Shown here piece after piece: positions 5,204 through 63,163 of a DNA stretch of 64,000 bases (positions are counted from its first letter, which is position 1; the number at the start of each line of letters is the position of its first letter). The DNA is from Geodermatophilus nigrescens (lineage in GTDB: Bacteria > Actinomycetota > Actinomycetes > Mycobacteriales > Geodermatophilaceae). The stretch spans positions 1,219,663 through 1,283,662 of the forward strand of contig NZ_FQVX01000002.1 in NCBI RefSeq assembly GCF_900129495.1. Direction: 5' to 3'. Both the position numbers and the translations under genes were made by a program. Under the pieces are notes generated by a model. The model was not told the origin of the DNA, made no database searches, and was given only the letters and a program-made list of their open reading frames with translations.

Positions 5204-5924
5204 TCGCCCAGCGTGACAGGACGGATGCGTCGAGTGCGTGCACCACGCCCAGGAGGAGCAGCCCGACGGCCGCGCCGACGACCGCGTCGGTGACCCAGTG
5301 GAAGTCCAGCGACACCATCGCGATCCCGGTGGCGACCGGGCCGACGACGGCGAGCCACCACAGCAGCGTCTGCACGCGCGGGGGCAGGGCGTACTCGGCG
5401 GCCTGCCAGCGCGCGACGCCCCACATGAGCACGGCGTTGGCCACGTGCCCGGAGGGGTAGCTGGCGCCGTCGCGGTGGAAGAAGGACCCCGGGTAGGCGG
5501 GGGCGGTCCGGCCGGTGCCGAACTTGAAGGCGTAGACCACGACGGTGAGCAGGACCAGCGCAGTGAGCACCCGGACCAGGGGCAGCAGGGTGCGCCCGCG
5601 CACGCACAGCCAGGCCACCAGCCCGGCGAAGACGATGAGGATGGTGCCGCGGCCGCCGACCTGGGTGACCACCCAGACCGGCCAGTAGGCCGGCGAGTCC
5701 CGCAGGTCCCAGCGGCTCACGACCTCCGAGACCTGCAGGTCCAGCCGCTCGAGGACGCCGCGGCTGAGCAGGTCGGCGGTGACCGCGACTGTCACGGCGA
5801 ACGCGACCAGCAGCAGCCACCACGGCGGCCGGCCCGCGCGCACGGCGGGCGGCGGCACGGACGCGTCGCCGTCGGCCGGCGTCCCGCCCCGCACGGCGCC
5901 GCTCATGACACGGCCGCTGGTCAC
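5175..5924 (-). CDS. PAP2-family membrane phosphatase
   Basis: Type-2 phosphatidic acid phosphatase family enzymes dephosphorylate lipid phosphates such as undecaprenyl or phosphatidyl phosphates at the membrane. The 249-residue protein has about six hydrophobic segments and the three signature motifs: KFGTGRTAP (KxxxxxxRP-like), YPSGHVAN (PSGH) and SLDFHWVTD (with the catalytic His and Asp). The start is set at a GTG because TACCGT lies exactly 6 bases upstream, a leaderless -10 seen repeatedly in this window. An ATG at 5906 is possible. It overlaps the downstream propeller-like gene. Confidence 0.87.
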   Translation of the reverse strand: MTSGRVMSGAVRGGTPADGDASVPPPAVRAGRPPWWLLLVAFAVTVAVTADLLSRGVLERLDLQVSEVVSRWDLRDSPAYWPVWVVTQVGGRGTILIVFAGLVAWLCVRGRTLLPLVRVLTALVLLTVVVYAFKFGTGRTAPAYPGSFFHRDGASYPSGHVANAVLMWGVARWQAAEYALPPRVQTLLWWLAVVGPVATGIAMVSLDFHWVTDAVVGAAVGLLLLGVVHALDASVLSRWASARAGRPPA

Positions 5925-5930
5925 GTCGTC

Positions 5931-5936
5931 ACGGTA
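5931..5936 (-). promoter_or_regulatory. Leaderless -10 element of the PAP2 gene
   Basis: On the minus strand TACCGT ends 6 bases before the GTG. No Shine-Dalgarno is present, so transcription probably begins at the start codon. Confidence 0.6.
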
Positions 5937-6047
5937 CCGGCCCGTGACCCACCCGTGACCTCCCGAACGGGGGACGGCGAGCCGCCCGGGTGACCGGCGG
6001 GGGCCGGACACCCGGGCGGACGCCGGGAGGGGACGCGGGAGGAGCGG

Positions 6048-7544
6048 TCAGGCGACGGGGACGGCGAACCGCTCGAGCGCCGCGGCCAGGCCCCCGTCGA
6101 CGCGGGCGGTCAGCCGGGTGCCGGCCGCCTCGTGCAGCTCGCTGAGCACCTCGCCGTCGCGGTGCACGCGGGCCACCAGGTCGCCCCGGTCGTAGGGCAC
6201 CAGCACCTCGACCTCGACGTCGGGGTGCGGCAGCCGCGCCGACACGATCTCGCGCAGCTTCTCGATGCCCTCGCCGGTGCGCGCCGAGACCGACACCGCG
6301 CCGGGCAGCGCCTGACGGAGGGTGAGCACGTCGTCCTCGGTCATGGCGTCGACCTTGTTGACGACGACGAGCTCCGGCACCGCGGCGGCGTCAATCTCGC
6401 GCAGCACCACGTGCACCGCGTCGATCTGGCCGAGCGGGTCGGGGTCGGAGCCGTCGACCACGTGCAGCAGCAGGTCGGCGCCGGCCACCTCCTCCAGCGT
6501 CGACCGGAACGCGTCGACGAGCTGGTGGGGCAGGTGCCGCACGAACCCGACGGTGTCGGTGAGCGTGTACTCGCGGCCGTCGGGCGACTGGGCCCGGCGC
6601 ACCGTCGGGTCGAGGGTGGCGAACAGCGCGTCCTCCACCAGCACGCCCGCCCCGGTCAGCCGGTTGAGCAGGCTCGACTTGCCGGCGTTGGTGTAGCCGG
6701 CGATCGCCACGCTCGGGACGGCGTTGCGGCCGCGGGCCGAGCGCTGGGTGGCGCGCGCGGTGGCCATGCCGGCGATCTCGCGGCGCAGCTTGCTCACCCG
6801 CGCGCGGATCCGCCGGCGGTCGGTCTCGATCTTCGTCTCACCGGGACCGCGGGTACCGATGCCGCCACCGCCGGCGACGCGGCCACCGGCCTGCCGGGAC
6901 AGCGACTCACCCCAGCCGCGCAGGCGCGGCAGCATGTACTGCATCTGCGCCAGCTCGACCTGGGCCTTGCCCTCCCGGCTGGTGGCGTGCTGGGCGAAGA
7001 TGTCGAGGATCAGCGCGGTCCGGTCGACCACCTTCACCTTGAGGATCTTCTCCAGCGCGTTGAGCTGGCCGGGGGTCAGCTCGCCGTCGGCGATGACGGT
7101 GTCGGCGCCGGTCGCGGCCACGATGTCGCGGATCTCGGCGGCCTTGCCCGAGCCCACGTAGGTGCCGGCGTCGGGCTTGTCGCGCCGCTGGCTCACGGCC
7201 TCGAGCACCTCCGAGCCCGCCGTCTCGGCGAGCGCGGCCAGCTCGGCCAGCGAGCGGTCGGCGTCGGCCTGGGTGCCCTCGGTCCAGACGCCCACGAGCA
7301 CCACGCGCTCGAGGCGCAGCTGCCGGTACTCGACCTCGCTGACGTCGGCGAGCTCGGTGGACAGGCCCGCCACGCGGCGCAGCGCGCCACGCGCCTCGAG
7401 GTCGTAGGAGCCGGTGGTCCCGTCGACGTCGTCGGGGGTGTCCCACTGCCCGGCCGGGGCGGGGCGGACGTCGGCCGGCGAGGCGGCACGGTCGGCCCGG
7501 TCCTGTGCGTCGGCGAGCACGGCGCGGTTCTGTGCGGTCGTCAT
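6048..7544 (-). CDS. hflX: Ribosome-associated GTPase HflX
   Basis: HflX is a GTPase that binds the 50S subunit and splits stalled 70S ribosomes. The 498-residue protein has the N-terminal HflX domain (EVEYRQLRLERVVLVGVW, SGKAAEIRDIV, VKVVDRTALILDIFAQHA) and the Gly-rich linker GGGIGTRGPGETKIETDRRR. The GTPase domain has G1 GYTNAGKSSLLN, G3 DTVGF and G4 NKVD. The first 70 residues are variable and acidic. The ATG at 7544 is preferred because CACATT lies 7 bases upstream on the minus strand; an in-frame ATG at 7607 would add 21 residues. It stands alone between PAP2 and a small acidic gene and is divergent from the latter. Confidence 0.95.
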   Translation of the reverse strand: MTTAQNRAVLADAQDRADRAASPADVRPAPAGQWDTPDDVDGTTGSYDLEARGALRRVAGLSTELADVSEVEYRQLRLERVVLVGVWTEGTQADADRSLAELAALAETAGSEVLEAVSQRRDKPDAGTYVGSGKAAEIRDIVAATGADTVIADGELTPGQLNALEKILKVKVVDRTALILDIFAQHATSREGKAQVELAQMQYMLPRLRGWGESLSRQAGGRVAGGGGIGTRGPGETKIETDRRRIRARVSKLRREIAGMATARATQRSARGRNAVPSVAIAGYTNAGKSSLLNRLTGAGVLVEDALFATLDPTVRRAQSPDGREYTLTDTVGFVRHLPHQLVDAFRSTLEEVAGADLLLHVVDGSDPDPLGQIDAVHVVLREIDAAAVPELVVVNKVDAMTEDDVLTLRQALPGAVSVSARTGEGIEKLREIVSARLPHPDVEVEVLVPYDRGDLVARVHRDGEVLSELHEAAGTRLTARVDGGLAAALERFAVPVA

Positions 7545-7707
7545 CACGTCCAATGTGACACGGGCGGGAGCGGCGGTCACCTGGGTTGTCTTCTCTGCAG
7601 TCGTCATACGCCGGGTACAACACCGGAACGGGTCAGGTGCATCCCGCGGGGAGCCGGGTAGGGCGCGACGAGGACCACGACGACGACGCCGACCCCAGGA
7701 GGCACCC

Positions 7708-7923
7708 GTGAGCACCAGCAGCAGCGAGGGCATCGAGGACCCGGGCCGCGACCCCGCCGGCCTCGAGGTCCCCCGCAACCCCTTCGGCGGCGCCGACCAG
7801 GACACCGGTCGCGGCGAGCCGCGCGGCACCGGCAACGTGGGCCCCGGCGACAAGCCGGAGGCGCCGACCGACGAGCCGGAGACCCGCGCCGACACCCCGG
7901 ACGACCCCGCGGCCGACCGCTAG
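7708..7923 (+). CDS. Small acidic hypothetical protein (71 aa)
   Basis: The protein is highly acidic, Pro/Gly/Glu-rich and apparently disordered, with no Cys, no membrane segment and no recognisable domain. Support for the gene is a GTG start with a full AGGAGG 5 bases upstream (7697-7702), strong third-position GC and a terminator just after the stop. Similar short acidic proteins of unknown function are common in actinobacteria. It is divergent from hflX and convergent with the TetR gene. I cannot assign a function. Confidence 0.7.
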   Translation: MSTSSSEGIEDPGRDPAGLEVPRNPFGGADQDTGRGEPRGTGNVGPGDKPEAPTDEPETRADTPDDPAADR

Positions 7924-7929
7924 CGGCAG

Positions 7930-7959
7930 CCGGCCGGGTCCCGCTGCGGGCCCGGCCGG
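7930..7959. terminator. Bidirectional hairpin between the 71-aa gene and the TetR gene
   Basis: CCGGCCGGGtCCC at 7930-7942 pairs with GGGcCCGGCCGG at 7948-7959 around a 5-base loop with one internal irregularity. It fills the gap between convergent stops. Confidence 0.65.
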
Positions 7960-7960
7960 G

Positions 7961-8575
<615 letters not shown>

Positions 8576-8593
8576 GACCGCATCCTGCCACTG

Positions 8594-8638
8594 ATGTTGA
8601 CGCCGTTCACACCTCGGCCTATGTTGATGCCGTTCACA
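8594..8638. promoter_or_regulatory. Two TetR operators overlapping a consensus promoter
   Basis: Two 18-bp direct copies, ATGTTGACGCCGTTCACA (8594-8611) and ATGTTGATGCCGTTCACA (8621-8638), are spaced 27 bases apart. Each is an imperfect palindrome of the form TGTnnAcGnCgTnnACA. The plus-strand promoter is embedded in them: TTGACG at 8597-8602, a 17-base spacer, then TATGTT at 8620-8625. AGGAGG and a GTG follow. Repressor bound at both copies would cover both the -35 and the -10. Confidence 0.8.
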
Positions 8639-8651
8639 CAGGAGGTGTGCG

Positions 8652-9341
8652 GTGTACGTGTCGTGGACGGCCCTGGAGCTCGGGGCCCCGGCCGCGGTGT
8701 GCCCCTGGCGGCCCGCCGGTGCCGCGTCCAGCCAGGCCGGCATCGCCGGTGCCGGACGGGCCGAGCTGCCCGAGGACCCCGGCACCTGGTGGTCGGTCCT
8801 CGGGACGTGGGACGACCCGGTGGAGGCGCTGCGCGCGGCACCGGCGCCCGGCGGCCCGGTGCGCGCCGCCTGGCACGTCGTCGTCCAGCCGGTGTCCTAC
8901 CGGGGCGACGCGGTGCTCGCCGGCGGCGCACGCCCCTTCGACCGGCTCCCCCGCCGCGGGAAGGTGGCCGGCGCCGCCGCCGTGATCACCCTGGCCGGGC
9001 TGGGGGACGACGCCGCGCGCACCGGGGAGTTCCTCGAGCGCTTCGGGGTCCTGGGCCGGCAGGTGGGCGACGCCCCCGGCTCCCTGGCCGCGCTCGTCCA
9101 GGCGCCGGACGACGGCGCCGTCCTCACCTTCTCCGCGTGGCGCACCCTGCGCGACGCCGTCACGTGGGCCTACCACCGGCCGGAGCACGCCGCCGCGGTC
9201 GCGCGGCACGAGGCCCACCGGCTGCTGCCGAGCACCGGCTTCCTCCGCTGTGCCGTCCTGGGCAGCTCCGGCACGCTCGGCGGCACCGACCCCCTCGCCG
9301 GCCTCACCGGCACCCCCGTCCTCCCGGAGGAGACCCCGTGA
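8652..9341 (+). CDS. Spheroidene monooxygenase (CrtA)-like / dimeric alpha-beta barrel protein
   Basis: The 229-residue protein shows the pattern of the CrtA-like family: GKVAGAAAVITLAGL, a GRQVGDAPG turn, then VLTFSAWRTLRDAVTWAYHR, followed by HEAHRLLPSTGF near the C terminus. Known members oxygenate carotenoids, but none of the carotenoid genes are nearby and sequence similarity is modest. A strong AGGAGG precedes the GTG. The stop overlaps the next gene by 4 bases (GTGA), so the pair is translationally coupled. The promoter is covered by two TetR operators. Substrate is unknown; a haem or flavin ligand is not evident from sequence. Confidence 0.65.
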   Translation: MYVSWTALELGAPAAVCPWRPAGAASSQAGIAGAGRAELPEDPGTWWSVLGTWDDPVEALRAAPAPGGPVRAAWHVVVQPVSYRGDAVLAGGARPFDRLPRRGKVAGAAAVITLAGLGDDAARTGEFLERFGVLGRQVGDAPGSLAALVQAPDDGAVLTFSAWRTLRDAVTWAYHRPEHAAAVARHEAHRLLPSTGFLRCAVLGSSGTLGGTDPLAGLTGTPVLPEETP

Positions 9342-9712: not shown

Positions 9713-9718
9713 CCGGCG

Positions 9719-10615: not shown

Positions 10616-11544
10616 CGCCCGATCGTACGGCCGGCGAGCAGCGCCTCGACCGCGCCGGCGAGGTCGGGGCGGGCGGCGTCGAACCACGCCGTCGCCGGGT
10701 CGCGGCGGAACCACGACCGCTGCCGGCGGACGAAGCGGCGGGTGGTGGTCACCGTGCGCTCGCGCGCCTCCTCGGGGGTCAGCTCGCCGTCGAGCTGGGC
10801 GAGCACCTGCGCGTAGCCGAGCGCCCGGGAGGCGGTGGGGCCCTCCCGCAGGCCCTCGGCCACCAGCGCCTCCACCTCGGCGACGAACCCGGCCGCCCAC
10901 ATCCGGTCCACCCGGGCGGCGACCCGCCCGTCGAGCTCGGCGACCTCCCGGTCCAGGCCGACGACGACGGCCGGGTAGCGCGGCCGCGGCTCGGGCAGCG
11001 TGGCGCGGAACGGCCCGCCGGTCAGCTCCACCACCTCCAGCGCGCGCACGATCCGCCGGCCGTTGGAGGGCAGGACGGCGGCCGCGGCGGCCGGGTCGAC
11101 GGCGGCCAGCCGGGCGTGCAGCGCAGCGGGCCCGGACGCCTCCAGCTCGGCCTGCAGGCGGGCCCGCACGGCGGGGTCGGTGCCGGGGATGTCGAGGTCG
11201 TCGAGGACGGCGCGCGCGTACAGGCCCGACCCGCCGACCAGCAGCGGGAGCCGGCCCGCCGCCCGCAGCCGGTCGACCTCCGCCCGGGCCAGCCGCGCGT
11301 ACTCCGCCACCGACGCCGCCTGCCGCACCGGCCAGACGTCGAGCAGGTGGTGCGGCACGCCCCGGCGCTCGGCGGCGTCGGGCTTGGCGGTGCCGATGTC
11401 CATGCCGCGGTAGAGCTGCATGGAGTCGGCGTTGACCACCTCGCCGCCGAGCCGCCGCGCCAGCTCCACCGCCAGCGCGGTCTTGCCGGTGGCGGTGGGG
11501 CCCACCACCGCGACCACGGGCGGCAGCGCACCCCCCGCGGTCAC
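10612..11544 (-). CDS. miaA: tRNA dimethylallyltransferase
   Basis: MiaA adds the dimethylallyl group to A37 of tRNAs reading UNN codons, the substrate later methylthiolated by MiaB. The 310-residue protein has the P-loop VVGPTATGKTALAVELA, NADSMQLYRGMDIGTAKP, HHLLDVW, LVGGSGLYARAVLDDL and RRFVRRQRSWFRRD. A longer open frame running in from upstream is an artefact; the GTG chosen overlaps the upstream stop by 4 bases. miaB lies about 2.7 kb away on the same strand. Confidence 0.96.
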   Translation of the reverse strand: MTAGGALPPVVAVVGPTATGKTALAVELARRLGGEVVNADSMQLYRGMDIGTAKPDAAERRGVPHHLLDVWPVRQAASVAEYARLARAEVDRLRAAGRLPLLVGGSGLYARAVLDDLDIPGTDPAVRARLQAELEASGPAALHARLAAVDPAAAAAVLPSNGRRIVRALEVVELTGGPFRATLPEPRPRYPAVVVGLDREVAELDGRVAARVDRMWAAGFVAEVEALVAEGLREGPTASRALGYAQVLAQLDGELTPEEARERTVTTTRRFVRRQRSWFRRDPATAWFDAARPDLAGAVEALLAGRTIGR

Positions 11545-12248: not shown

Positions 12249-12275
12249 CGCACGAGTGTCGCGGATGCGGCGTGG

Positions 12276-12281
12276 GACACT
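12276..12281 (+). promoter_or_regulatory. Leaderless -10-like element of the DUF349 gene
   Basis: GACACT ends 7 bases before the GTG start, with no Shine-Dalgarno. The same GGGGACACT or GGGACACT string precedes lhr and nei at the same distance. Confidence 0.45.
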
Positions 12282-12288
12282 GCGGTGC

Positions 12289-15855: not shown

Positions 15856-15861
15856 TAGGGT
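15856..15861 (+). promoter_or_regulatory. Leaderless -10 element of gluA
   Basis: TAGGGT ends 7 bases before the gluA GTG. The same hexamer precedes the 36-aa gene (27809) and the PfkB kinase gene (38635) at nearly the same distance. Confidence 0.65.
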
Positions 15862-20640: not shown

Positions 20641-20773
20641 GCCGGAACGCTAGGCCCGCCGGGCCCGGAGCCCCGCGTGTCGTCCGCGCGGGGCGGACAG
20701 GCCTGCGCGGGTCGTGCAGGGCGGTGGACAGCGCGAGTGGCACCGCAGGCGGCGCGGGCTCGGGCGGCGCGGG

Positions 20774-26360: not shown

Positions 26361-26366
26361 ACGCTA
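26361..26366 (-). promoter_or_regulatory. Leaderless -10 element of the ABC/two-component operon
   Basis: On the minus strand TAGCGT ends 7 bases before the GTG of the ATPase gene. No Shine-Dalgarno is present. Confidence 0.6.
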
Positions 26367-26662: not shown

Positions 26663-26668
26663 ACGCTA
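26663..26668 (-). promoter_or_regulatory. Leaderless -10 element of the DUF3046 gene
   Basis: TAGCGT on the minus strand ends 6 bases before the GTG and overlaps the stop codon region of the PH-domain gene. Confidence 0.55.
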
Positions 26669-27307
26669 GCGCGCGTCCGCGTCGGGGGTGGCGGCCGCGT
26701 GCCCGGCCAGGCCCGCCCGGAGCCGCCGCACGAGCGCGGCCGGGTCGTCGGCGGCCAGGCGCAGCTCGTCGACCGGCCGCCCACCGGTGCGCGCGAGCGG
26801 CAGCACCAGCGGCGTCCGCAGCTCGACGTCGACCTGGGTGGAGGCGACGACGGCGACCGACACCGCCCGCCGCCCGCCCTCCTCGGCGACGACGACGGTG
26901 CGCGAGCCCTCCACCGAGCGCCGCCGCACCCGGACCGCCGCGATCGCCTCCCACGGCACCCGCACGTCCACGGCGAAGCTGTTGCGCACGCGCAGCCCCT
27001 CGTCGTCGACGGTGTGCGGGTGGACGTGCATCCCCCCGAGCATGCCGAGCATCCACAGCAGCCCGTAGACGCCGACGACGAGCAGCGCCACGCGCGCCGC
27101 GGGCCACGGCAGCAACCAGTCGACCAGCGGGATCTCGACGGCCGACAGGACGACGAAGGTCCACAGCACCGGCGAGGCGGCCGAGACGTAGCCGAACGCC
27201 TCCGCGCCGGCCGGGACGTCGGGCCGGCGCGCCACCCAGCGCCCGAGGCTGCGCCAGGTGCCGAGCTCGAAGGCGACGGCGCGGCGCACGAGCCCCGCGG
27301 CGCTCAC
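26666..27307 (-). CDS. Membrane protein with PH-like domain
   Basis: The 213-residue protein has two hydrophobic helices (SPVLWTFVVLSAVEIPLVDW and ARVALLVVGVYGLLWMLGML, about residues 45-95). A soluble C-terminal half follows with alternating beta strands like a bacterial PH domain (VRVPWEAIAAVRVRRRSVEG, RTVVVAEEGGRRAVSVAV, TQVDVELRTPLVL). Function unknown. The GTG overlaps the MarR-gene stop by 4 bases, so it is cotranscribed with the regulator and may be its target. Confidence 0.75.
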   Translation of the reverse strand: MSAAGLVRRAVAFELGTWRSLGRWVARRPDVPAGAEAFGYVSAASPVLWTFVVLSAVEIPLVDWLLPWPAARVALLVVGVYGLLWMLGMLGGMHVHPHTVDDEGLRVRNSFAVDVRVPWEAIAAVRVRRRSVEGSRTVVVAEEGGRRAVSVAVVASTQVDVELRTPLVLPLARTGGRPVDELRLAADDPAALVRRLRAGLAGHAAATPDADAR

Positions 27308-27765
27308 GGGGTCTCCTCCGCGGCGCTGCCCGGGACCAGCGGCCGCAGCCGCTCCAGGACGTCGTCGAGGGCGGACACCAGCGCGTCGAGCCGGTCGGGC
27401 GGCAGCCCGCCGAACAGCTGGCCGGCGAGCTCGGCCTGCCCGCGCCCGAGCTCGTCGAGCAGCTCCCGCCCGCGCGCGGTGGGCGTGACGAGGGTGGCCC
27501 GGCGGTCGTCGGGGTGGGGCTCGCGGGTGACCAGGCCTGCGGCGGCCAGCCCGTCGACCAGGCCGGTGACGTTGCGGGCGCTGACCCCGAGCGCGTCGGC
27601 CAGTGCGCGCTGGGTGCTCGGGCCGGCGGCGCGCAGGTGCCACAGCAGCGTCGTGCGGGCCACCGTCAGGCCGGAGGCGGCCAGCGAGGCCGTCATGTCC
27701 CGGCCGAGCAGGACGGTCAGCTCCAGCACCCGGTCGAGCGCGGCCACCCGGGCGTCGTCCGGCAT
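27304..27765 (-). CDS. MarR-family transcriptional regulator
   Basis: The 153-residue protein has the MarR winged helix: TTLLWHLRAAGPSTQRALADAL, the recognition helix SARNVTGLVDGLAAAGLV and the wing EPHPDDRRATLVTPT. The ATG is preceded by AGGGGG and, on the minus strand, TATCGT about 30 bases upstream. A CGTGAAG-n3-CTTCACG inverted repeat overlaps this -10, indicating autorepression. It probably also controls the divergent 36-residue peptide gene and the coupled PH-domain gene. Ligand unknown. Confidence 0.92.
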   Translation of the reverse strand: MPDDARVAALDRVLELTVLLGRDMTASLAASGLTVARTTLLWHLRAAGPSTQRALADALGVSARNVTGLVDGLAAAGLVTREPHPDDRRATLVTPTARGRELLDELGRGQAELAGQLFGGLPPDRLDALVSALDDVLERLRPLVPGSAAEETP

Positions 27766-27798: not shown

Positions 27799-27820
27799 AT
27801 AGCAGGACTAGGGTGAGGCC

Positions 27821-27931
27821 GTGTTCCCCACCACCGGCTCCGCCACCTGGGACACCGTCCTGGAGATCGGCATCGCGCTGTGCATGCTCGTGTCGCTGGT
27901 GCTGCTCTGGCGCGGGATGCGCGGCCGCTGA
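27821..27931 (+). CDS. 36-residue single-pass membrane peptide
   Basis: GTG at 27821 opens a 36-codon frame ending TGA at 27929. It starts MFPTTGSATWDTVLEIG, then a hydrophobic helix of about 18 residues (IALCMLVSLVLLW) and a basic end RGMRGR: one membrane-spanning segment with a positive C terminus, so N-out/C-in. TAGGGT lies at 27809-27814, exactly 6 bases before the GTG, and matches the gluA and PfkB-gene leaderless promoters. A MarR operator lies just upstream. The frame is too short for routine gene finders. Function unknown; a regulatory or accessory membrane peptide is plausible. Confidence 0.65.
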   Translation: MFPTTGSATWDTVLEIGIALCMLVSLVLLWRGMRGR

Positions 27932-29199: not shown

Positions 29200-30345
29200 T
29201 CACAGCCCCAGCGACCGGCCGATGATCTCGCGCATGATCTCGTTCGTGCCGCCGTAGATCGACTGCACGCGGGCGTCGCGCCAGGCCCGGGACACCGGGT
29301 ACTCGTCCATGTAGCCGTAGCCGCCGTGCAGCTGCAGGCAGCGGTCGGCCACCTTGTTCTGCAGCTCGGTCGTCCAGTACTTGGCCATCGCCGCGTCGAC
29401 GGCGGTCAGCTCCCCGGCGCCGAGCTGGCGGACGCACTCGTCGACGAAGGTGCGCGCGATCGTCGTCTCGGTGGTGAGCTCGGCGAGCACGAAGCGGCTG
29501 TGCTGGAAGCTGCCGACCGGCCGGCCGAACGCCGTCCGGCCGGTCACGTACTCGCGGGTCTGCGCGAGCACCGTCTCGCAGGCGGCGACCGCGCCGACGG
29601 CGATCGACAGCCGCTCCTGCGGCAGGTTCTCCATGAGGTGGGCGAAGCCGCGGTTCTCGGTGCCGAGCAGGTTGTCGGCGGGGACGCGGACCTCGTCGAA
29701 GAACAGCTCGGCGGTGTCCTGCGCCTTGAGGCCCACCTTGTCCAGGTTGCGGCCGCGGGTGAAGCCGGGCATGCCGCGCTCGACGACGAGCAGGCTGGTG
29801 CCCTTCGCGCCGGGGGCGTCGGGGTCGGTGCGCGCCACCACGATCACCAGGTCGGCGTTGATCCCGTTGGTGATGAACGTCTTGGCGCCGCTGAGCACCC
29901 ACTCGTCGCCGTCGCGGCGGGCGGTGGTGCGGATGGCCTGCAGGTCGCTTCCGGTGCCGGGCTCGGTCATCGCGATGGCGGTGATCAGCTCGCCGCGGCA
30001 GAAGCCGGGCAGCCAGCGCTGCGCCTGCTCCTCGGTGCACAGGTCGCGCAGGTAGGGGGCGACGACGTCGTTGTGCAGGCCGAAGCCGAGGCCGCTGGCG
30101 CCGATGCGCGTGACCTCCTCGTCGAGGACGGCGTTGTAGCGGAAGTCGCGCACCCCGCCGCCGCCGTACCGCTCGTCGACGTCGAAGCCGAGCAGGCCCT
30201 GCTCCCCGCCGGAGAGCCAGACCTCGCGCGGCACGATCCCGTCGCGCTCCCACTGGCCGTGGAAGGGGGCGACGTTCTTCTCCAGCCACGTGCGGACCGT
30301 CTGCCGGAAGTCCTCGTGGTCGGCCTCGTAGAGGGAGGAGCGCAT
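29200..30345 (-). CDS. Acyl-CoA dehydrogenase
   Basis: The 381-residue FAD enzyme would introduce the alpha-beta double bond in an acyl-CoA. Motifs: ITAIAMTEPGTGSDLQAI (FAD/substrate), WVLSGAKTFITNG, and the C-terminal LHGGYGYMDEYPVSRAWRD with IYGGTNEIMREIIGRSL. The catalytic base region YGGTNEIM is intact. Its length is typical. The ATG at 30345 fits a CACACT hexamer 7 bases upstream on the minus strand. It is divergent from lhr with 101 bases between. Substrate chain length cannot be inferred. Confidence 0.94.
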   Translation of the reverse strand: MRSSLYEADHEDFRQTVRTWLEKNVAPFHGQWERDGIVPREVWLSGGEQGLLGFDVDERYGGGGVRDFRYNAVLDEEVTRIGASGLGFGLHNDVVAPYLRDLCTEEQAQRWLPGFCRGELITAIAMTEPGTGSDLQAIRTTARRDGDEWVLSGAKTFITNGINADLVIVVARTDPDAPGAKGTSLLVVERGMPGFTRGRNLDKVGLKAQDTAELFFDEVRVPADNLLGTENRGFAHLMENLPQERLSIAVGAVAACETVLAQTREYVTGRTAFGRPVGSFQHSRFVLAELTTETTIARTFVDECVRQLGAGELTAVDAAMAKYWTTELQNKVADRCLQLHGGYGYMDEYPVSRAWRDARVQSIYGGTNEIMREIIGRSLGL

Positions 30346-30434
30346 GCCCGGCAGTGTGCCGCACGCCACCCTCCGTCCGGGCGACCCTCCGCCCGCGGCG
30401 TACGCGCAGGCCAGCGGACTGTCGTACCCGCGGG

Positions 30435-30440
30435 GACACT
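30435..30440 (+). promoter_or_regulatory. Leaderless -10-like element of lhr
   Basis: GACACT (within CGGGGACACT) ends 6 bases before the lhr GTG. No Shine-Dalgarno. The same string precedes the DUF349 gene and nei. Confidence 0.5.
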
Positions 30441-35120: not shown

Positions 35121-35960
35121 ATGGCAGCCGGCACGGTCCGCTGGTTCGACGCGGACAAGGGCTTCGGGTTCATCGAGCCGCAGGACGGCGGGGACGACGT
35201 GTTCGTCCACTTCTCGTCGATCGAGGACACCGGGGGCTTCCGCACCCTCGACGAGGGGCAGCCGGTCGACTACGACGCGAGCCCCGGCCCGCGCGGCCCC
35301 CAGGCCGACCGGGTCCGCCCGACCGGCGGCGCGCCCCGCGCCCGCCGTGACGACCGGCGGGACGACCGCGGCTCCGGCCGTGACGACCGGGGCGGCTCCC
35401 GCGACGACCGTGGCCGCTCCGGCGGCGGCCGGGCGCCCCGCGGGATCGTCGTCTCGGGCACCGTGGCGCGCTTCGACGCCGACCGCGGCTTCGGGTTCAT
35501 CGTCCCCGAGGACGTCTTCGTGCACGTCTCCGCGCTCAGCGGGCGCGGCGGCGAGCTCGAGGAGGGCGACCGCGTCGAGTTCGAGCTGGTCGAGGGCAAC
35601 CGCGGCCTGCAGGCGGAGTCGGTGCGGCTGGTCGGCGGCGGCCGGCGCGGCGGCTACGACCGGCCCGCGCCGCGCGAGCGCCGGGACGACCGGGGCGGCC
35701 GCGACCAGCGTCCCGCCCGCTCCGCCGGCCGCGGCGGGGACGCCGGCGGTGACGCGCAGGGCACCGTGCAGTGGTTCAACCCCGACAAGGGCTTCGGCTT
35801 CATCACGCCCGACGACGGCGGCGACGACGTCTTCGTGCACTTCTCCGAGATCGAGGAGACCGGCGGCTACCGCGAGCTCCAGGAGGGCCAGCGGGTCGCG
35901 TTCTCCCGCACCTCCGGCTCCCGGGGCGTCAGCGCCGCCGGCGTCCGCCCGCTCGACTGA
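35121..35960 (+). CDS. Protein with three cold-shock domains
   Basis: The 279-residue protein contains three cold-shock (OB-fold, RNA-binding) domains. CSD1 (about 1-67) has KGFGFIEP and [12 protein letters not shown]2 (about 110-170) is shortened, with RGFGFIVP directly followed by [12 protein letters not shown]3 (about 213-278) has KGFGFITP and DVFVHFSEI and is close to CSD1. The linkers are Arg/Asp/Gly-rich and RGG-like ([16 protein letters not shown], then GGRRGGYDR). Usual CspA proteins have a single 67-residue domain. ATG chosen after GAGGGAT; an ATG at 35106 would add five residues. It lies 69 bases downstream of lhr and ends at a strong bidirectional terminator. Confidence 0.9.
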
Positions 35961-35965
35961 GACCG

Positions 35966-36001
35966 GCTGACGCCGGTCCCGTCCGCGGGACCGGCGTCAG
36001 C
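35966..36001. terminator. Bidirectional hairpin between cold-shock and ABM-domain genes
   Basis: A perfect 15-bp stem (35966-35980 with 35987-36001; core CTGACGCCGGTCCC) and a 6-base loop lie between convergent stops and include the last bases of the ABM-domain gene. Confidence 0.8.
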
Positions 36002-36587
36002 GGCGGCCGCGCAGCCAGGGGCCGAACCAGCGGGTCAGCCGTGGCATGACCACCTGGCCGAGCAGCACGACGACCACGGTCGCCGAGAGCAGCAGGCGCA
36101 GCGGCAGCGGCCACGACCCGACGTGCGGAGCCACCAGCAGCTGGAAGCCCAGCGTGATGGCGAAGACGGCCGCGATGGTGAGCACCGTGAGCCGCCAGCG
36201 CGGGCCGGGCCGCGGCGGGGTCATCGCGGTGAAGAAGCTGTCCAGGCCGGCCACGCGCGCGTAGTCGGCGCCGCCGGACAGGTGCTCCACGCGCTCCAGC
36301 GCCGCCTGCCGCTCGGCCGACCGCTCCCAGCGGGCCAGCGACTCGCCGTCGGAGAACCGGTACACCAGGTGGTACCGGGTGGATCCGGCGCCCGGGCGCA
36401 GCAGGCTGGTGCCGAGGTTGCCGGGGAACCGCTCCGCCAGGCCGAGGATCTCCCCGGCCCACTCCTCGAACGGCGCCCGCTGCTCGGGGCGCACGTCACG
36501 GGCTACGGTCACCGTCACCGGCTCGGCCACCCCCGCCACGTGCTCGGGGGCGATGGCCGGGTCGCGCGGGTCGGGACGTCGCTGCAC
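35997..36587 (-). CDS. Antibiotic-biosynthesis-monooxygenase-like domain with two membrane helices
   Basis: The 196-residue protein has an ABM/dimeric alpha-beta barrel domain at about residues 22-115 (PVTVTVARDVRPEQRAPFEE, TRYHLVYRFSDGESLARWER, RVAGLDSFF). Two C-terminal membrane helices follow (LTVLTIAAVFAITLGFQLLV and LPLRLLLSATVVVVLLGQVV). Such ABM-membrane fusions are widespread with unknown role; a monooxygenase reaction is not established. The GTG at 36587 is chosen on coding pattern; start is uncertain. Divergent from nei. Confidence 0.8.
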   Translation of the reverse strand: MQRRPDPRDPAIAPEHVAGVAEPVTVTVARDVRPEQRAPFEEWAGEILGLAERFPGNLGTSLLRPGAGSTRYHLVYRFSDGESLARWERSAERQAALERVEHLSGGADYARVAGLDSFFTAMTPPRPGPRWRLTVLTIAAVFAITLGFQLLVAPHVGSWPLPLRLLLSATVVVVLLGQVVMPRLTRWFGPWLRGRR

Positions 36588-36673: not shown

Positions 36674-36679
36674 GACACT
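36674..36679 (+). promoter_or_regulatory. Leaderless -10-like element of the nei-type gene
   Basis: GACACT (within GGGGACACTGG) ends 6 bases before the GTG. This is the same configuration as lhr. Confidence 0.5.
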
Positions 36680-37604: not shown

Positions 37605-38441
37605 TCAGGCGTTCTCGGGGCGCTGCGCCGTCTGCTCGGTCTTCTCGAACGACGGCGACGCGGCGCCCGGGCCGATCGCGCCGGCCGCGCCGGTGCCGCT
37701 CTCGACGGCCGGCGTATGCCCGCCGCCCATGCCGGCCCGGATCTGCTCCAGCCGCGAGGCGCCGGCGACGTCGAGGGTGGCCTTCTGCACCTCGAGCATC
37801 CGGCCCTCGACGGAGGTCTGCGCGAGCTCGGCCTGGCCCAGCGCGTTGGCGTAGCGGGCCTCGATCTTGTCGCGGACCTCGGCCAGGCTCGGCGTGTTGC
37901 CCGGCGCGGACAGCTCGTTGACCTGGCGCATCGACGCGGCCACGTGCTCCTGCATCTTGGCCTGCTCGAGCTGGCTCATGAGCTTGGTGCGCTCGGCCAG
38001 CGTGGTCTGCAGCCGCATCCGGCTCTGCTCGACCGCGCCGCGCGCCTGCTCGGCGGCCTGCAGCGCCTCGTCGTGGCTGCGCTTGAGGTCCTCCATCGCC
38101 TGCTCGGCGGCGACGAGCTGGGTGGCGAACGCCTGCGCGGCCTGCTCGTACTCGGCGGCCTTGGGGGCGTCACCGCGGCCGCGGGACTGGTCGGCGAGGA
38201 CGAGCGCCTGGCGGGCGGAGGCCTGCAGCTTCTCGACCTCGCCGAGCTGCCGGTTCAGCCGCATCTCCAGCTGGCGCTGGTTGCCCAGCACCGCGGCCGC
38301 CTGGTTGGCCAGCGACTGGTGCCGCTGCTGCTCGGCCTCGATCGCCTGCTGGATCTGGATCTTGGGGTCGGCGCGCTGGTCGATCTGCGCGTTGGCCGAC
38401 GCCGTCAGGTACCGCCACAGCTTGACGATCGGGTTGGGCAT
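37605..38441 (-). CDS. pspA: Phage-shock protein A / IM30 family membrane-repair protein
   Basis: PspA polymerises on damaged inner membranes and lowers proton leakage. The 278-residue protein starts [21 protein letters not shown], the amphipathic membrane-binding helix. Long coiled-coil helices of the ESCRT-III-like fold follow ([57 protein letters not shown]). A Gly/Ala/Pro tail ends the protein. ATG with AGGAGGAG upstream, so it is leadered. In mycobacteria pspA is controlled by ClgR, encoded here 9 kb away. A 21-bp inverted repeat lies in its leader region. Confidence 0.92.
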
Positions 38442-38634: not shown

Positions 38635-38640
38635 TAGGGT
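38635..38640 (+). promoter_or_regulatory. Leaderless -10 element of the PfkB kinase gene
   Basis: TAGGGT ends 6 bases before the ATG with no Shine-Dalgarno. Confidence 0.65.
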
Positions 38641-49962: not shown

Positions 49963-49968
49963 ATCGTA
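49963..49968 (-). promoter_or_regulatory. Leaderless -10 element of rimO
   Basis: TACGAT on the minus strand ends 6 bases before the rimO GTG; no Shine-Dalgarno. Confidence 0.6.
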
Positions 49969-52599: not shown

Positions 52600-52605
52600 A
52601 CGGTA
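52600..52605 (-). promoter_or_regulatory. Leaderless -10 element of ftsK
   Basis: TACCGT on the minus strand ends 7 bases before the ftsK ATG; no Shine-Dalgarno. Confidence 0.6.
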
Positions 52606-52654: not shown

Positions 52655-52660
52655 TACGGT
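52655..52660 (+). promoter_or_regulatory. Leaderless -10 element of the S9 peptidase gene
   Basis: TACGGT ends 7 bases before the ATG; no Shine-Dalgarno. Confidence 0.6.
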
Positions 52661-54611: not shown

Positions 54612-54683
54612 GCGGGCGCTGAACCGTCGGGGCCCGGCGGCCGTACGCCTCTCCGACGCAGTCGGCGCGCCGGGAGGTCGCGG

Positions 54684-55897: not shown

Positions 55898-55905
55898 CCG
55901 CGGAC

Positions 55906-55940: not shown

Positions 55941-55954
55941 TGCCCGTGGCGCGG

Positions 55955-57235: not shown

Positions 57236-57299
57236 GGCAGTCCCCTCCGAGATCGCGGCGCCCGCGGACCGGGCGCCGCACACGGAGGGGTACGGCCGC

Positions 57300-57328
57300 G
57301 GCGGCCGGGGCGTTCAGCCCCGGCCGCC
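57300..57328 (-). terminator. Terminator downstream of rnj
   Basis: GGCGGCCGGGGC at 57300-57311 pairs perfectly with GCCCCGGCCGCC at 57317-57328 around a 5-base loop, right after the rnj stop. Confidence 0.75.
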
Positions 57329-57332
57329 GGCG

Positions 57333-59045: not shown

Positions 59046-59938
59046 AGGGGGACGCCTCCGGAGGCGAGGTCGGCGCGCAGCTGCGCGATCTGCTCGGGCG
59101 TGGCGTCGACCATCGGCGGGCGCACGGGGCCCGCGGGCAGCCCGAGCTCGCGCAGTGCGGCCTTCACCATGATGACGCCCTGGGTGCGGAAGATGCCGGT
59201 GTAGACCGGCAGGAGGGCCTCGTTGACCTCGCGCGCCTTCACGAGGTCGCCGGCCTCGACGGCGGCGATGAGCTCGGCCAGGCGCGGGCCGACGAGGTGC
59301 CCGACGACGCTGACCACGCCGACGGCGCCGAGGGCCAGCAGCGGCAGGTTGAGCATGTCCTCGCCGGAGTAGTAGGCGAGGTCGGTGCGGGCGAGGGTCC
59401 AGGCGACGGCGCCGAGGTCGGCCTTGGCGTCCTTCACCGCGACGATCCGCGGGTGCTCGGCGGCGCGGACCAGCGTCTCGACCTCGATGGGGACCACCGA
59501 GCGCGGCGGGATGTCGTAGAGCATCACCGGCAGGTCGGTGGAGTCGGCGACCGAGGTGAAGTGCCGCAGCAGGCCGGCCTGGGGCGGCTTGTTGTAGTAC
59601 GGCGTCACGACCAGCAGGCCGTGCGCGCCCAGCCGCTCGGCGTCGCGCGCCCGGTCGATGCTGTGCGCGGTGTCGTTGGTGCCCACCCCGGCGACGACGA
59701 CGGCGCGGTCGCCCACCGCGTCGAGGACGGCCTCGAGGACGGCGCGGCTCTCGGCGTCGCTGACCGTCGGCGCCTCCCCCGTCGTCCCGAGGACGACCAG
59801 GCCGTCGTGGGCGCCCCGGTCGACGAGGTGGGCGGCCAGCTCCTGGGCCCCGGCGAGGTCGATCGAGCCGTCCTCGGCGAACGGGGTGACCATCGCCGTG
59901 AGGACGCGCCCGAAGGGCCGGGCGGGGTCGGTGGTCAT
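59042..59938 (-). CDS. dapA: 4-hydroxy-tetrahydrodipicolinate synthase
   Basis: DapA condenses pyruvate with aspartate semialdehyde at the start of the diaminopimelate/lysine branch, whose later enzyme DapF is encoded about 49 kb away in this window. The 298-residue protein has GTTGEAPTVSDAE, the Tyr of TPYYNKPPQAGLL and the Schiff-base Lys in IVAVKDAKADLG. TAGATT lies 7 bases before the ATG on the minus strand, so it is probably leaderless. It overlaps rnj. Confidence 0.96.
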   Translation of the reverse strand: MTTDPARPFGRVLTAMVTPFAEDGSIDLAGAQELAAHLVDRGAHDGLVVLGTTGEAPTVSDAESRAVLEAVLDAVGDRAVVVAGVGTNDTAHSIDRARDAERLGAHGLLVVTPYYNKPPQAGLLRHFTSVADSTDLPVMLYDIPPRSVVPIEVETLVRAAEHPRIVAVKDAKADLGAVAWTLARTDLAYYSGEDMLNLPLLALGAVGVVSVVGHLVGPRLAELIAAVEAGDLVKAREVNEALLPVYTGIFRTQGVIMVKAALRELGLPAGPVRPPMVDATPEQIAQLRADLASGGVPL

Positions 59939-59945
59939 GCGGTCG

Positions 59946-59951
59946 AATCTA
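59946..59951 (-). promoter_or_regulatory. Leaderless -10 element of dapA
   Basis: TAGATT on the minus strand ends 7 bases before the dapA ATG. It overlaps the stop of dfrA, so dapA-rnj has its own promoter rather than depending only on thyA-dfrA transcription. Confidence 0.55.
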
Positions 59952-60473
59952 CCGACCGCCGGGAACGGCGACCGTCCCGGCAGCGGGCGCCCGCTCGTAC
60001 TCGCCGACCGCGTACCGCAGGCCCGACGACGAGGTGGCCCAGCCGTCCTCCGGCGTCCGGGCGACCCGCCGCCACTCCCCGCCGAGCGCGGGGGCGCGGG
60101 TGTCGCCGTCGACGGCGAGGTCGACGTCGGTGACCACCAGCCGGGCGGCGTGCGGCAGGAACGCCGCATAGACCTCCGCGCCGCCGATCACCCAGCAGTC
60201 GGGGGCGTCGGCGAGCACCTCCTCCGGGGAGCCGGCCCGCTCGGCGCCGTCGGCGGCCCAGGCCGGGTCGCGGGTGAGGACGACGTTGCGCCGCCCGGGC
60301 AGCGGCCGGTTGCGCTCGGGCAGCGACTCCCAGGTGCGCCGGCCCATGACGACGGTGGATCCGGTGGTCAGCCGCTTGAACAGCCGCAGGTCCTCGGGCA
60401 GGTGCCAGGGCAGCCGCCCGTCGGCGCCGATGACCCGGTCGCGCGCCTGCGCCCAGATCAGCGAGACCGGCAC
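59949..60473 (-). CDS. dfrA: Dihydrofolate reductase
   Basis: DHFR regenerates tetrahydrofolate used up by ThyA. The 174-residue enzyme has SLIWAQARDRVIGADGRLPW, the catalytic Asp region HLPEDLRLFKRLT, VVMGRRTWESLP and the NADPH site WVIGGAEVYAAFL. Length is typical. The GTG starts one base after the thyA stop, so thyA-dfrA is a tight pair. No change at the common trimethoprim-site residues can be judged with confidence. Confidence 0.94.
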   Translation of the reverse strand: MPVSLIWAQARDRVIGADGRLPWHLPEDLRLFKRLTTGSTVVMGRRTWESLPERNRPLPGRRNVVLTRDPAWAADGAERAGSPEEVLADAPDCWVIGGAEVYAAFLPHAARLVVTDVDLAVDGDTRAPALGGEWRRVARTPEDGWATSSSGLRYAVGEYERAPAAGTVAVPGGR

Positions 60474-60474
60474 C

Positions 60475-61290
60475 TCAGACCGCGACGGCGGCGCGGATGG
60501 CCGGGTGCGGGTCGTACCCGTGCAGGACGAGGTCCTCGAAGCGGTGGTCGAACAGCGACGGCGCGGGCGCGATCTCCAGCGTCGGGAACGGCCGCACCTC
60601 GCGGGACAGCTGCTCGCGGACCTGCTCGACGTGGTTGCTGTACACGTGGCAGTCGCCGCCGACCCAGATGAAGTCGCCCGGCTCCAGCCCGACCTGCGCG
60701 GCGACCATGCGGGTCAGCAGCGCGTAGCTGGCGATGTTGAACGGGACGCCGAGGAACATGTCGGCGCTGCGCTGGTAGAGCTGGCAGGACAGCCGGCCGT
60801 CGTGGACGGCGAACTGGAACAGCGCGTGGCACGGGGCCAGCGCCATCTCCGGCAGCGCGGCCACGTTCCAGGCGGAGACCACCATGCGGCGGGAGTCGGG
60901 GTCCTTCCGCAACGTGTCGAGGACGCCCTGGATCTGGTCCACCGTGCCGCCGTCGGGCGTGGGCCACGAGCGCCACTGGACGCCGTAGACCGGCCCGAGC
61001 TCGCCGTCCGCGTCGGCCCACTCGTCCCAGATGCTGACGCCGTTGTCCTGCAGCCAGCGCACGTTGCCGTCGCCGCGCAGGAACCACAGCAGCTCGACGG
61101 CGACCGACCGCCAGTGCACCTTCTTCGTCGTGACGAGCGGGAACGACGTCGAGAGGTCGTAGCGCAGCCGCTCGCCGAAGGTGCTCACGGTGCCGGTGCC
61201 GGTGCGGTCGGACTTCGGCGTCCCGGTCTCCAGGATCCGCCGGAGCAGGTCCTCGTACTGGGTGTCGACTCCGGTGCTGCTGCTCCCCAC
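60475..61290 (-). CDS. thyA: Thymidylate synthase (ThyA type)
   Basis: ThyA methylates dUMP with methylene-tetrahydrofolate. The 271-residue enzyme has [20 protein letters not shown], the dUMP site [13 protein letters not shown], the catalytic Cys in [11 protein letters not shown], and the product-side [14 protein letters not shown] and [15 protein letters not shown] lies 8 bases before the GTG on the minus strand: probably leaderless. It is the ThyA rather than the flavin-dependent ThyX form. Confidence 0.96.
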
Positions 61291-61301
61291 GGCGGGCCAG
61301 C

Positions 61302-62534
61302 CTAGGCGACGACGGTGCGCCGGGCGGGCAGCACGGAGGTGAGGTCGGCCGCGAGGTCCCCGCGCCCGGCGACCGCGACGTCGTCGAGCTCCAGCCACGA
61401 CGCCGCGAGACGCAGCTCGGCCGCGAGGGCGTCCGCCACCTCCGCGCGGTCGACGCCCTCCTCGGCGTGCACCGCCTGCACCCGCAGGACGCCGGCCTGC
61501 CGGTCGGCCTTGAGGTCGGCGCGGGCCACGAGGCGGTCGCCGAGCAGGAAGGGCAGCACGTAGTAGCCGTGCACCCGCTGGGCGGCCGGCGTGTAGATCT
61601 CCAGGCGGTAGCGGAAGCCGAAGATGCGCTCGACCCGCGGCCGCTCCCAGACGAGCGAGTCGAACGGCGACAGCAGCGCCCGCGCGCGGATCCACCGGGG
61701 CCGGCGGGCGGCGGGGTCGAGCCAGGCGGGGACGCCCCAGCCGGCGACCTCGACCGGCGCCAGCTCCCCGGCCTCCTCCAACTCCGCGATCGCCTGCCGC
61801 GCCTGGGCAGGCCGCAGCCGGAAGTAGTCGCGCAGGTCGCGTTCGGTGGCCACGCCAAGGGCGCGCGCGGCGGTGCGGACGAGCTCCCGGACGGCGTCGG
61901 CGGGCTCGGGCGTGGGCGCCTGCACGACGGCGGCGGGCAGCACCCGCTCGGTGAGGTCGTAGACCCGCTCGAACGACGTCGTGCGAGCCCGGGCGGTGAG
62001 CGCCCCGGTGTAGAAGAGCCACTCGAGCGCGACCTTGCCCGCGTGCCAGTTCCACATCTGCCCGGGCCGGTCGGGGCGCTGCTCGGCGAGGTCGCTGGCC
62101 TTGAGCGGGCCGCTCTCCCGCACCCGGTCGAGCACCTCGGCGACGTAGCCGGGCCGCTCGCGCTGGATGCGCACCATCGAGCCCCAGGCCTGCTCCTCGG
62201 CGGCCGCCATGCGCCAGCGCAGGTGGGGGTGCAGCCGCACCGGCAGGTAGGAGGCCTCGTGCGCCCAGAACTCGAACACCTCGTGCCGGCGGCCGAAGAA
62301 GTCGTCGAGCACCGGCCGCCGGTAACCGCCGAGCCGGCTGAAGTAGGGCAGGTAGTGCGAGCGGGAGACGACGTTCACCGAGTCGATCTGGACGACGCCC
62401 AGCCGCTCGGTGGTGCGCCGCAGCTGCCGGCTGTCGACGACGCCCGCCGGGCGCGGCTCGGCGAAGCCCTGGGCGGCCAGCGCGATGCGCCGGGCGAGCG
62501 CGGCGGGGAGCCGTTCGGCGGTCGGTGCGGGCAC
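61302..62534 (-). CDS. YcaQ-type winged-helix (DNA glycosylase-like) protein
   Basis: The 410-residue protein belongs to the YcaQ/DUF1006 winged-helix family, whose E. coli member unhooks DNA interstrand crosslinks. Visible landmarks: [37 protein letters not shown], the central helical part and C-terminal [19 protein letters not shown] with [19 protein letters not shown]. It would repair crosslinks or bulky lesions, matching other repair genes in the window. GTG start; upstream ORF extension is artefact. thyA starts 11 bases after its stop. Confidence 0.88.
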
Positions 62535-62584
62535 GGAGGGGATCCTGCCCCGCCCGTGTGACGGTCCGCGTCCCGGTGCCGACC

Positions 62585-62590
62585 TAGGCT
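62585..62590 (+). promoter_or_regulatory. Leaderless -10 element of the GNAT gene
   Basis: TAGGCT ends 6 bases before the GTG; no Shine-Dalgarno. Confidence 0.6.
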
Positions 62591-62596
62591 GCCCGC

Positions 62597-63163
62597 GTGG
62601 AGCCCCGTCCCGTCTTCCCGCGCCTGACCGGCTCGGCGGAGGTGTCGGTGCGCCCGGCGCTCCCCTCCGACGCCGCCGACGTCGCCCGCGTCCAGGAGCT
62701 GGCCTGGCGATCGGCACCCGCCGGCGCGGTGCCCGGCGCGGTGCTCGAGTCCTGGGACGGCGCGGCTGTCGCGGCGTCCTGGGCGGCGGCGGTCACCGAT
62801 CCGCCCTCACCGCGGCACGAGGTGCTGGTGGCGCTCGACGGCGACCAGGTGGTCGGCTTCGCCGCGGTGGCGCCCGCGGAGCCGCAGGACGACGGGCCGG
62901 TCACCGAGCTCGTCCTGGTCCTGGTGGAGCCGCGGTGGGGCCGCCGGGGTCACGGGAGCCGCCTGCTCGCCGCGGTCGCCGACCGGGCCACGGCGGCCGG
63001 TGCGGTGCGGCTGGTCGCCTGGCTGGCCGAGCTCGACACCGTGACGGCGGGGTTCCTCGAGTCGGCCGGCTGGGACCGTGACGGCTGGGTCCGCACGCTC
63101 GACACGGGGGCGGATCCCCTGCGCGAGGTCCGCTGGCACACGCTGCTGGGAGGCGGGGCATGA
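62597..63163 (+). CDS. GNAT-family N-acetyltransferase
   Basis: The 188-residue protein has the GNAT fold: VSVRPALPSDAADVARVQEL at the start, HEVLVALDGDQVVGFAAVAP, the acetyl-CoA loop VEPRWGRRGHGSRLLAAVADRA (RxxGxG as RRGHGS) and GFLESAGWDRDGWVRTL. Acceptor unknown. Divergent from the YcaQ-like gene and coupled to the DUF2461 gene by an ATGA overlap. Confidence 0.87.
   Translation: MEPRPVFPRLTGSAEVSVRPALPSDAADVARVQELAWRSAPAGAVPGAVLESWDGAAVAASWAAAVTDPPSPRHEVLVALDGDQVVGFAAVAPAEPQDDGPVTELVLVLVEPRWGRRGHGSRLLAAVADRATAAGAVRLVAWLAELDTVTAGFLESAGWDRDGWVRTLDTGADPLREVRWHTLLGGGA

Follow-up and report, generated by a model that had tools for sequence, protein, structure and literature searches.

In Actinobacteria, genes whose mRNAs carry no leader are already well documented. 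A TANNNT word ca 12 bp before the start codon marks such genes, which average 19.2% of genes in 86 of the 89 Actinobacteria (Zheng 2011, PMC3160421). In Mycobacterium tuberculosis, leaderless mRNAs have been mapped for 26% of the genes with a primary start (Cortes 2013, PMC3898074), and in mycobacteria an RTG codon (ATG or GTG) at the 5' end is both necessary and sufficient for leaderless translation (Shell 2015, PMC4633059). The same layout, with TANNNT beside the open reading frame (ORF), is an experimentally proven leaderless promoter in another phylum, Deinococcus-Thermus (Zhong 2025, PMC12340547). An extended -10 architecture, TGNNANNNT, has also been described for M. tuberculosis, and in E. 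coli the extension has been described as compensating for a weaker -10 (PMC4227772, PMC5511352). Here and below, the cited papers are represented by excerpts of their text. For leaderless genes in Geodermatophilus, no literature on the subject was found, as judged by titles and the beginnings of abstracts.

Here we analyze hexamers of this kind in a stretch of 64,000 nucleotides from Geodermatophilus nigrescens, called the window in the following (C3:1219663-1283662, that is, a part of contig C3 in a 4.74 Mb genome of 11 contigs; G+C of 71-79% in 4-kb blocks). An earlier note on the window had proposed a fixed leaderless-promoter grammar, in which a -10-like hexamer ends 6-8 bases before start codons that have no Shine-Dalgarno (SD) sequence. 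We find a sharp peak of TANNNT at this distance, and beside it a second class of hexamers, C/G-ANNNT. Taken as a whole, the reading that the two classes are -10 elements of leaderless promoters is very probably correct, judging from the sequence comparisons presented below.

Position and context of the TANNNT hexamers

Genes were called from codon usage only, with the upstream sequence ignored, and the resulting starts, which are imperfect, will be called blind starts. The discovery set consists of the window and 800 kb of evenly spaced samples (796 genes, 795 of them with sufficient upstream sequence), the second set of 800 kb of fresh stretches from the same genome (694 genes), and the third set of 43 loci of other actinobacteria (741 genes, ORFs longer than 4.2 kb, i.e. 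the lhr genes, being excluded). The latter belong to 80 loci retrieved via Lhr, the other 37 of which are from Geodermatophilaceae and were used for footprints. In its best-matching segment, the Lhr of the window has 96% identity with the Lhr proteins of Geodermatophilus obscurus, G. saharensis and G. dictyosporus.

In the discovery set, TANNNT is separated from the start codon by a gap of 6, 7 or 8 bases in 35, 25 and 13 genes, respectively, a total of 73/795 where 2.8 would be expected from the remaining gaps. Four genes have it at gaps 0-5 or 9-18. The fresh stretches (32, 22 and 12 genes, total 66/694) and the other actinobacteria (43, 29 and 5, total 77/741) have the same profile, and the 6-8 base peak anticipated from the window is thus present well beyond it. 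When no gene calls are used at all, TANNNT-N6-ATG is found 84 times in the whole genome, and the reversed pattern 11 times. In 864 kb, there are 105 TANNNT-N6-8-RTG sites, 93 of which are located at the 5' ends of called genes (stretch ends not counted); the remaining 12 are intergenic (5), internal to genes (3), far upstream in frame (2), antisense (1) or in another gene on the same strand (1). The matches are also biased in their gene context, being rarer within tight same-strand runs (14/266, 9/205 and 12/212 in the discovery, fresh and other-actinobacterial sets, an order kept below) than at divergent genes (35/256, 38/264 and 37/230). As a rough estimate, with off-gap counts as background, ca 11% of the genes would be leaderless by TANNNT (94/795 at any plausible start, ca 6 expected) and a further ca 12% by C/G-ANNNT (171, ca 74 expected). 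The genes of Zheng 2011 have the same TANNNT about 12 bp upstream, likewise in high-GC actinobacteria; the excerpts of that paper contain no separate C/G-ANNNT class, and the split is made here.

The SD core is absent from all TANNNT-positive genes of the three sets (0/73, 0/66 and 0/77, i.e. 0/216), while among all genes it is found in 301/795, 264/694 and 220/741. The start codons of the TANNNT genes are 48 GTG and 25 ATG in the discovery set, and 46 GTG and 20 ATG in the fresh stretches. No -35 element was found in this first class, TTG being present at spacers of 16-18 bases in 1/73 genes (4/68 in the second class). The leaderless genes of M. tuberculosis and M. smegmatis share TANNNT, the lack of a conserved -35 and ATG or GTG at +1; their start sites have been mapped (PMC3898074, PMC4633059), whereas here they are deduced from the sequence.

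We suggest that the hexamers are likely the -10 elements of housekeeping-sigma promoters, and that transcription would start on the first base (A or G) of the start codon, producing leaderless mRNAs. Translation would begin with the ribosome binding at the 5' end itself, probably with no need of an SD sequence, a step for which we draw on the mycobacterial finding that a 5' RTG is necessary and sufficient. In the first class, the signal would be the hexamer alone, with no TGN and practically no -35.

A different scenario keeps the hexamers as -10 elements, but has transcription start a few bases upstream of the start codon or within it, or adds further promoters upstream, such that the mRNAs would have short leaders. 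The variation of the gap between 6, 7 and 8 bases speaks for it, and so does the only mild preference for a pyrimidine at -1, with C or T before the start in 55/73 TANNNT genes and 441/722 others. However, the peak is three bases wide, with 1/795 genes at gap 5 and 0/795 at gap 9, and there is no SD to serve a leader. Moreover, TTG starts are missing among the 216 matches, which fits the RTG-only rule of mycobacteria, although TTG is rare in the remaining genes too (11/722 and 5/628). We consider short leaders unlikely, and the leaderless interpretation will be used in what follows.

First-class sites in the window and their orthologues

On the two strands of the window, there are 15 TANNNT-N6-8-RTG sites, 12 of which are at blind starts, 3 at in-frame upstream starts and none elsewhere. 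Among the blind calls, 12/62 genes have TANNNT at gaps 6-8, compared to 0.55 expected from other gaps. Thirteen of the 15 sites had been listed in the earlier note, and the hexamers and gaps that it gave, for 13 main and 4 weaker cases, are present in the sequence in all 17.

On the plus strand, TAGGGT at 15856..15861 (gap 7 to GTG 15869) precedes a gene previously named gluA, whose product is an ABC-transporter ATPase. It is followed by TAGGGT at 27809..27814 (gap 6 to GTG 27821; a gene for a 36-aa protein), TAGGGT at 38635..38640 (gap 6 to ATG 38647; PfkB kinase), TACGGT at 52655..52660 (gap 7 to ATG 52668; S9 peptidase) and TAGGCT at 62585..62590 (gap 6 to GTG 62597; GNAT). The minus strand has TACCGT at 5931..5936 (gap 6 to GTG 5924; PAP2 phosphatase), three copies of TAGCGT, at 20647..20652 (gap 6 to ATG 20640; metallo-beta-lactamase fold), 26361..26366 (gap 7 to GTG 26353; ABC ATPase) and 26663..26668 (gap 6 to GTG 26656; DUF3046), and further TACGAT at 49963..49968 (gap 6 to GTG 49956; rimO), TACCGT at 52600..52605 (gap 7 to ATG 52592; ftsK), TAGATT at 59946..59951 (gap 7 to ATG 59938; dapA) and TAGGCT at 61299..61304 (gap 8 to GTG 61290; thyA). 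The two sites that are new compared to the earlier list are also on the minus strand: TACGGT at 2180..2185 (gap 7 to GTG 2172; the ORF has no Pfam match, and its blind start is 10 codons further downstream) and TACGAT at 10622..10627 (gap 6 to GTG 10615; dapF), which lies within the overlapping upstream gene and is the weakest of the set. Pfam supports the names PAP2, PfkB, S9 peptidase, GNAT, metallo-beta-lactamase fold, ABC ATPase, DUF3046 and FtsK, and also dihydrodipicolinate synthase, thymidylate synthase, the RimO-type radical-SAM protein and, for genes discussed further below, the HflX-type GTPase, Lhr, the Nei-type glycosylase and DUF349.

Orthologues with at least 45% identity were scanned in the 37 Geodermatophilaceae loci at in-frame start codons around the aligned start, and matches of lower identity were dropped. 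TANNNT at gaps 6-8 is present in 32/32 orthologues of the DUF3046 gene, in 17/18 of the 36-aa gene and in 23/24 of PfkB, and at the control gaps 14-16 in 0, 0 and 1, respectively. Another draw of genomes gave 29/30 copies for the 36-aa gene, the one of the window being counted. For the SD-led neighbor at 37605-38441, on the other hand, TANNNT was found in 0/30 orthologues and C/G-ANNNT in 1, and for the gene at 35997-36530 TANNNT was found in 0/20. Another four scanned genes have just 3, 4, 4 and 7 orthologues. The metallo-beta-lactamase gene (20640) had no usable match and those of the ABC ATPase (26353) are paralogues of ca 26-29% identity; both were excluded. It should be noted that the conservation of the T, A and last T columns of the hexamer is not used as evidence, as the sequences were selected by the same pattern.

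The rimO and S9 peptidase genes bear on the earlier claim that the pattern fixes several start codons. In rimO, TANNNT is positioned exactly for GTG 49956, 10 codons upstream of the codon-model start, in 20/20 genus loci (19 genomes; the count omits the G051 locus, which has only a paralogue). In the S9 peptidase gene, whose ATG 52668 is 4 codons upstream of the codon-model start, TACGGT with a start codon 6-7 bases downstream is present in 15/15 genus loci (a weak second match in G067 being omitted), and where the N-terminus shifts among these loci the start codon tracks the hexamer. Since the motif is kept in all of them, the claim holds for these two genes.

Some observations can be added on the surroundings of the 36-aa gene. 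The protein (27821-27931, plus strand) has one hydrophobic stretch that resembles a membrane helix and no Pfam match, and it is matched in 45/57 genomes of the family, representing 9/12 genera, with the leaderless-type promoter mostly present. Between the DUF3046 gene and the 36-aa gene, two genes occupy 26666-27765 on the minus strand, one for a MarR-type regulator and one whose product weakly matches a PH domain; in several relatives, as seen by eye, the DUF3046 promoter is directly divergent from the 36-aa gene. A palindrome, GTGAAG-N3-CTTCAC, upstream of the MarR-type regulator and beside the 36-aa promoter looks like an operator of this regulator.

The second class of hexamers and the probable lhr promoter

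We now consider C/G-ANNNT, which peaks at gap 6 with 67/795 genes, compared to roughly 8 per gap. In the window, this second class is represented on the minus strand by CACGCT at 5210..5215 (gap 6 to GTG 5203; TGN upstream) and CACACT at 30353..30358 (gap 7 to ATG 30345; acyl-CoA dehydrogenase, 29200-30345), and on the plus strand by GACACT at 30435..30440 (gap 6 to GTG 30447; lhr) and at 36674..36679 (gap 6 to GTG 36686; nei). GACACT is further found at both genes of a divergent pair whose start codons are 40 bp apart, at 12255..12260 on the minus strand (gap 6 to GTG 12248) and at 12276..12281 on the plus strand (gap 7 to GTG 12289; the DUF349 gene, with TGN upstream). At hflX, CACATT (7552..7557, minus strand) precedes a tandem GTG-ATG, with gaps of 4 bases to GTG 7547 and of 7 to the ATG that follows it.

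Hexamers of both classes have A as their second and T as their sixth base, and the classes differ in what lies directly upstream. With SD genes removed, TGN precedes 21/68, 17/59 and 22/75 hexamers of the second class, 0/73, 0/66 and 0/76 of the first class, and 9/186, 10/135 and 15/221 background sites. This split was spotted in the discovery set and then tested on the fresh stretches and the other actinobacteria; pooled over the own genome, it amounts to 38/127 in the second class and 0/139 in the first, while according to the excerpts TGN is present at 7% of the TANNNT primary promoters of M. tuberculosis. Counts made without gene calls, in the 10 genomes of the genus that the searches have in common, agree with the split: 18 for TGNTANNNT-N6-ATG (TGNTA; reversed control 8), 81 for TCNTANNNT (TCNTA; control 9), 304 for TGNSANNNT (control 64) and 94 for TCNSANNNT (control 43). 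We propose that the absent first T is probably offset by an extended -10, i.e. TGN or at least a G there, or by an activator. As a second compensation, the discriminator GG after the hexamer is weak (40/127 vs 22/139, p 0.0035). The TGNNANNNT class of M. tuberculosis likewise has TGN, a first T that is not obligatory and one preferred location; unlike it, the class described here is tied to leaderless starts, and C/G-ANNNT is kept gene by gene in Geodermatophilaceae, for three genes.

These three genes are lhr, nei and the acyl-CoA dehydrogenase gene, for which C/G-ANNNT is retained in 37/37, 31/31 and 20/20 orthologues, with the first T in 0/88. Their orthologues thus keep the class, which argues against decayed copies of first-class promoters. 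The hexamers that the earlier note gave for lhr, nei and the DUF349 gene are confirmed, but its view of them as weaker variants has to be replaced by that of a second promoter class, which is constant for lhr and nei in all scanned orthologues. In the window, TGN is lacking at lhr, nei and the acyl-CoA dehydrogenase gene, and it can therefore be only a part of what defines this class.

In the case of lhr, a different upstream element is present. TGTCGT at 30420..30425 (plus strand) starts 15 bases before the -10 and resembles the -26 element of PafBC promoters. In all 36 orthologues examined, TGTC precedes the -10, by 16 bases in 23 and by 15 bases in 13. By comparison, TGTC within 8-29 bases of the hexamer was found in 0/31 cases for nei and 0/23 for PfkB; near the DUF3046 hexamer it is present in 1/32, at 17 bases, and in the 20 orthologues of the acyl-CoA dehydrogenase gene there is none nearer than 24. 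The RecA-independent promoters have the consensus tTGTCRgtg-8 nt-TannnT (PMC5656591), in which the distance from TGTC to the -10 is 16 bases, and upregulation via the PafBC pathway is reported for the mycobacterial lhr-nei2 operon (PMC11323726). In its TGTC at 15-16 bases, the lhr promoter resembles the PafBC promoters, of which mycobacterial lhr-nei2 is a reported target (PMC5656591, PMC11323726, PMC11804915). The differences are that the -10 of PafBC promoters, as excerpted, is TannnT while here it is GACACT, with C/G-ANNNT in 37/37 orthologues, that the R-g-t-g part of the consensus is only partly kept, and that lhr-nei2 is an operon in mycobacteria whereas nei here stands as a unit of its own and lacks the TGTC element. 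We therefore think that the lhr promoter may work like a PafBC promoter, and predict that it is PafBC-driven after DNA damage, but as its -10 lacks the first T it is not classed as a member. The genome has 8 places with WYL domains, two of them adjacent on the same strand (C3:239216 and 240196).

The possibility that a PafBC-like element characterizes the second class in general was also considered and rejected, as such an element is clear only at lhr among the second-class leaderless sites. A loose pattern, TGTC[AG][GT]N8-11-hexamer, occurs 116 times in 1.66 Mb, compared to 40 for the reversed one, and 18 of the occurrences precede a called start by at most 120 bases. Two leaderless starts of the first class, at L009:8406-8435 and L029:17331-17360 (both plus strand), have TGTCGG at PafBC spacing and a TACCCT -10 at gap 8; they precede scpA and an ORF without Pfam match, and no DNA-repair signature is seen. 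Beside lhr, at 35121-35960 on the plus strand, a protein with three cold-shock domains is encoded, for which orthologues aligned N-terminally at 45% identity or more are present in only 3/37 Geodermatophilaceae loci.

With the second class at hand, another explanation can be addressed, namely that the TANNNT-like word serves the translation of leadered mRNAs, for instance as a non-SD ribosome-binding element, and is no promoter at all. The word indeed occupies the usual place of the SD. However, TANNNT is the -10 consensus of the mapped M. tuberculosis promoters according to the excerpts, the second class has TGN, an extended -10 element, directly upstream, lhr has a promoter-activator-like element at promoter spacing, and the matches are rarer inside operons, all of which makes a translation signal very improbable. 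Still less credible, to the point of being negligible, is an artefact of gene calling, where an in-frame TAG or TAA closes the frame and the start is placed just downstream: the gap-6 hexamer is in frame and TAG-initial hexamers are the most common ones (51% at gap 6), but TAC, which is no stop, accounts for 42% at that gap, gaps 7 and 8 are out of frame, the call-free counts have the same excess (84 vs 11), and starts of orthologues carry the motif at or near the aligned codon.

Weight of the evidence and significance

A number of points weigh against the leaderless-promoter interpretation. The number of sites in the window is not extreme by itself, since first-order Markov sequences give a mean of 6.9 and a maximum of 16 (200 runs), compared to the 15 seen; position profiles and the genome were turned to for this reason, and the non-random feature in the window is the position of the sites, not their number. 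One orthologue each of the 36-aa gene and PfkB lacks the motif. The species behind the orthologue and genus counts are related, and these counts are hence not independent, and the 43 outgroup loci all flank lhr and have some genes in common. C/G-ANNNT is present at every gap, so the second class includes background. The depletion of TGN in the first class, taken alone, is weakly significant (p 0.048 for the own genome, 0.39 for the others and 0.0099 pooled), while the enrichment in the second class is robust. About half of the genes in the discovery set (251/502 and 145/266) have neither motif nor SD core, and a part of these must be wrong start calls. Finally, 13/139 first-class hexamers begin inside the upstream gene, some of them maybe by chance. 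In 7/139 first-class genes of the own genome, the TA[GA] of the hexamer doubles as the stop codon of the upstream gene, such that stop, promoter and start are tightly overlapped.

The idea of leaderless promoters in the window is supported by position, the absence of SD, gene context, conservation and the peak, while the grammar is not new, being the standard actinobacterial pattern. The gain is one of detail. Modestly new, and not stated in the excerpts of the cited literature, are the division of leaderless starts between first T and TGN and its gene-by-gene constancy; the depletion half of this division is statistically weak.

In very GC-rich genomes, start codons can be corrected from the sequence alone, here those of rimO and the S9 peptidase gene, and the motif draws attention to small, conserved leaderless genes, such as that of the 36-aa protein, which may be overlooked in annotation. 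The two leaderless promoter classes constitute a testable split, and one of them includes a predicted DNA-damage promoter.

A more far-reaching proposal, which we regard as possible but offer only tentatively, is that the leaderless genes of Geodermatophilaceae use two mutually exclusive promoter codes, and that each gene is locked family-wide in one of them. In one code, position -12 would be T and TGN would be absent; in the other, position -12 would be C/G, accompanied by TGN, G or an activator element. The lock is suggested because 0/88 orthologues have gained the T, although one base change suffices. If this is true, the second code would keep basal expression low and inducible, and the -12 base would mark regulated versus constitutive leaderless genes.

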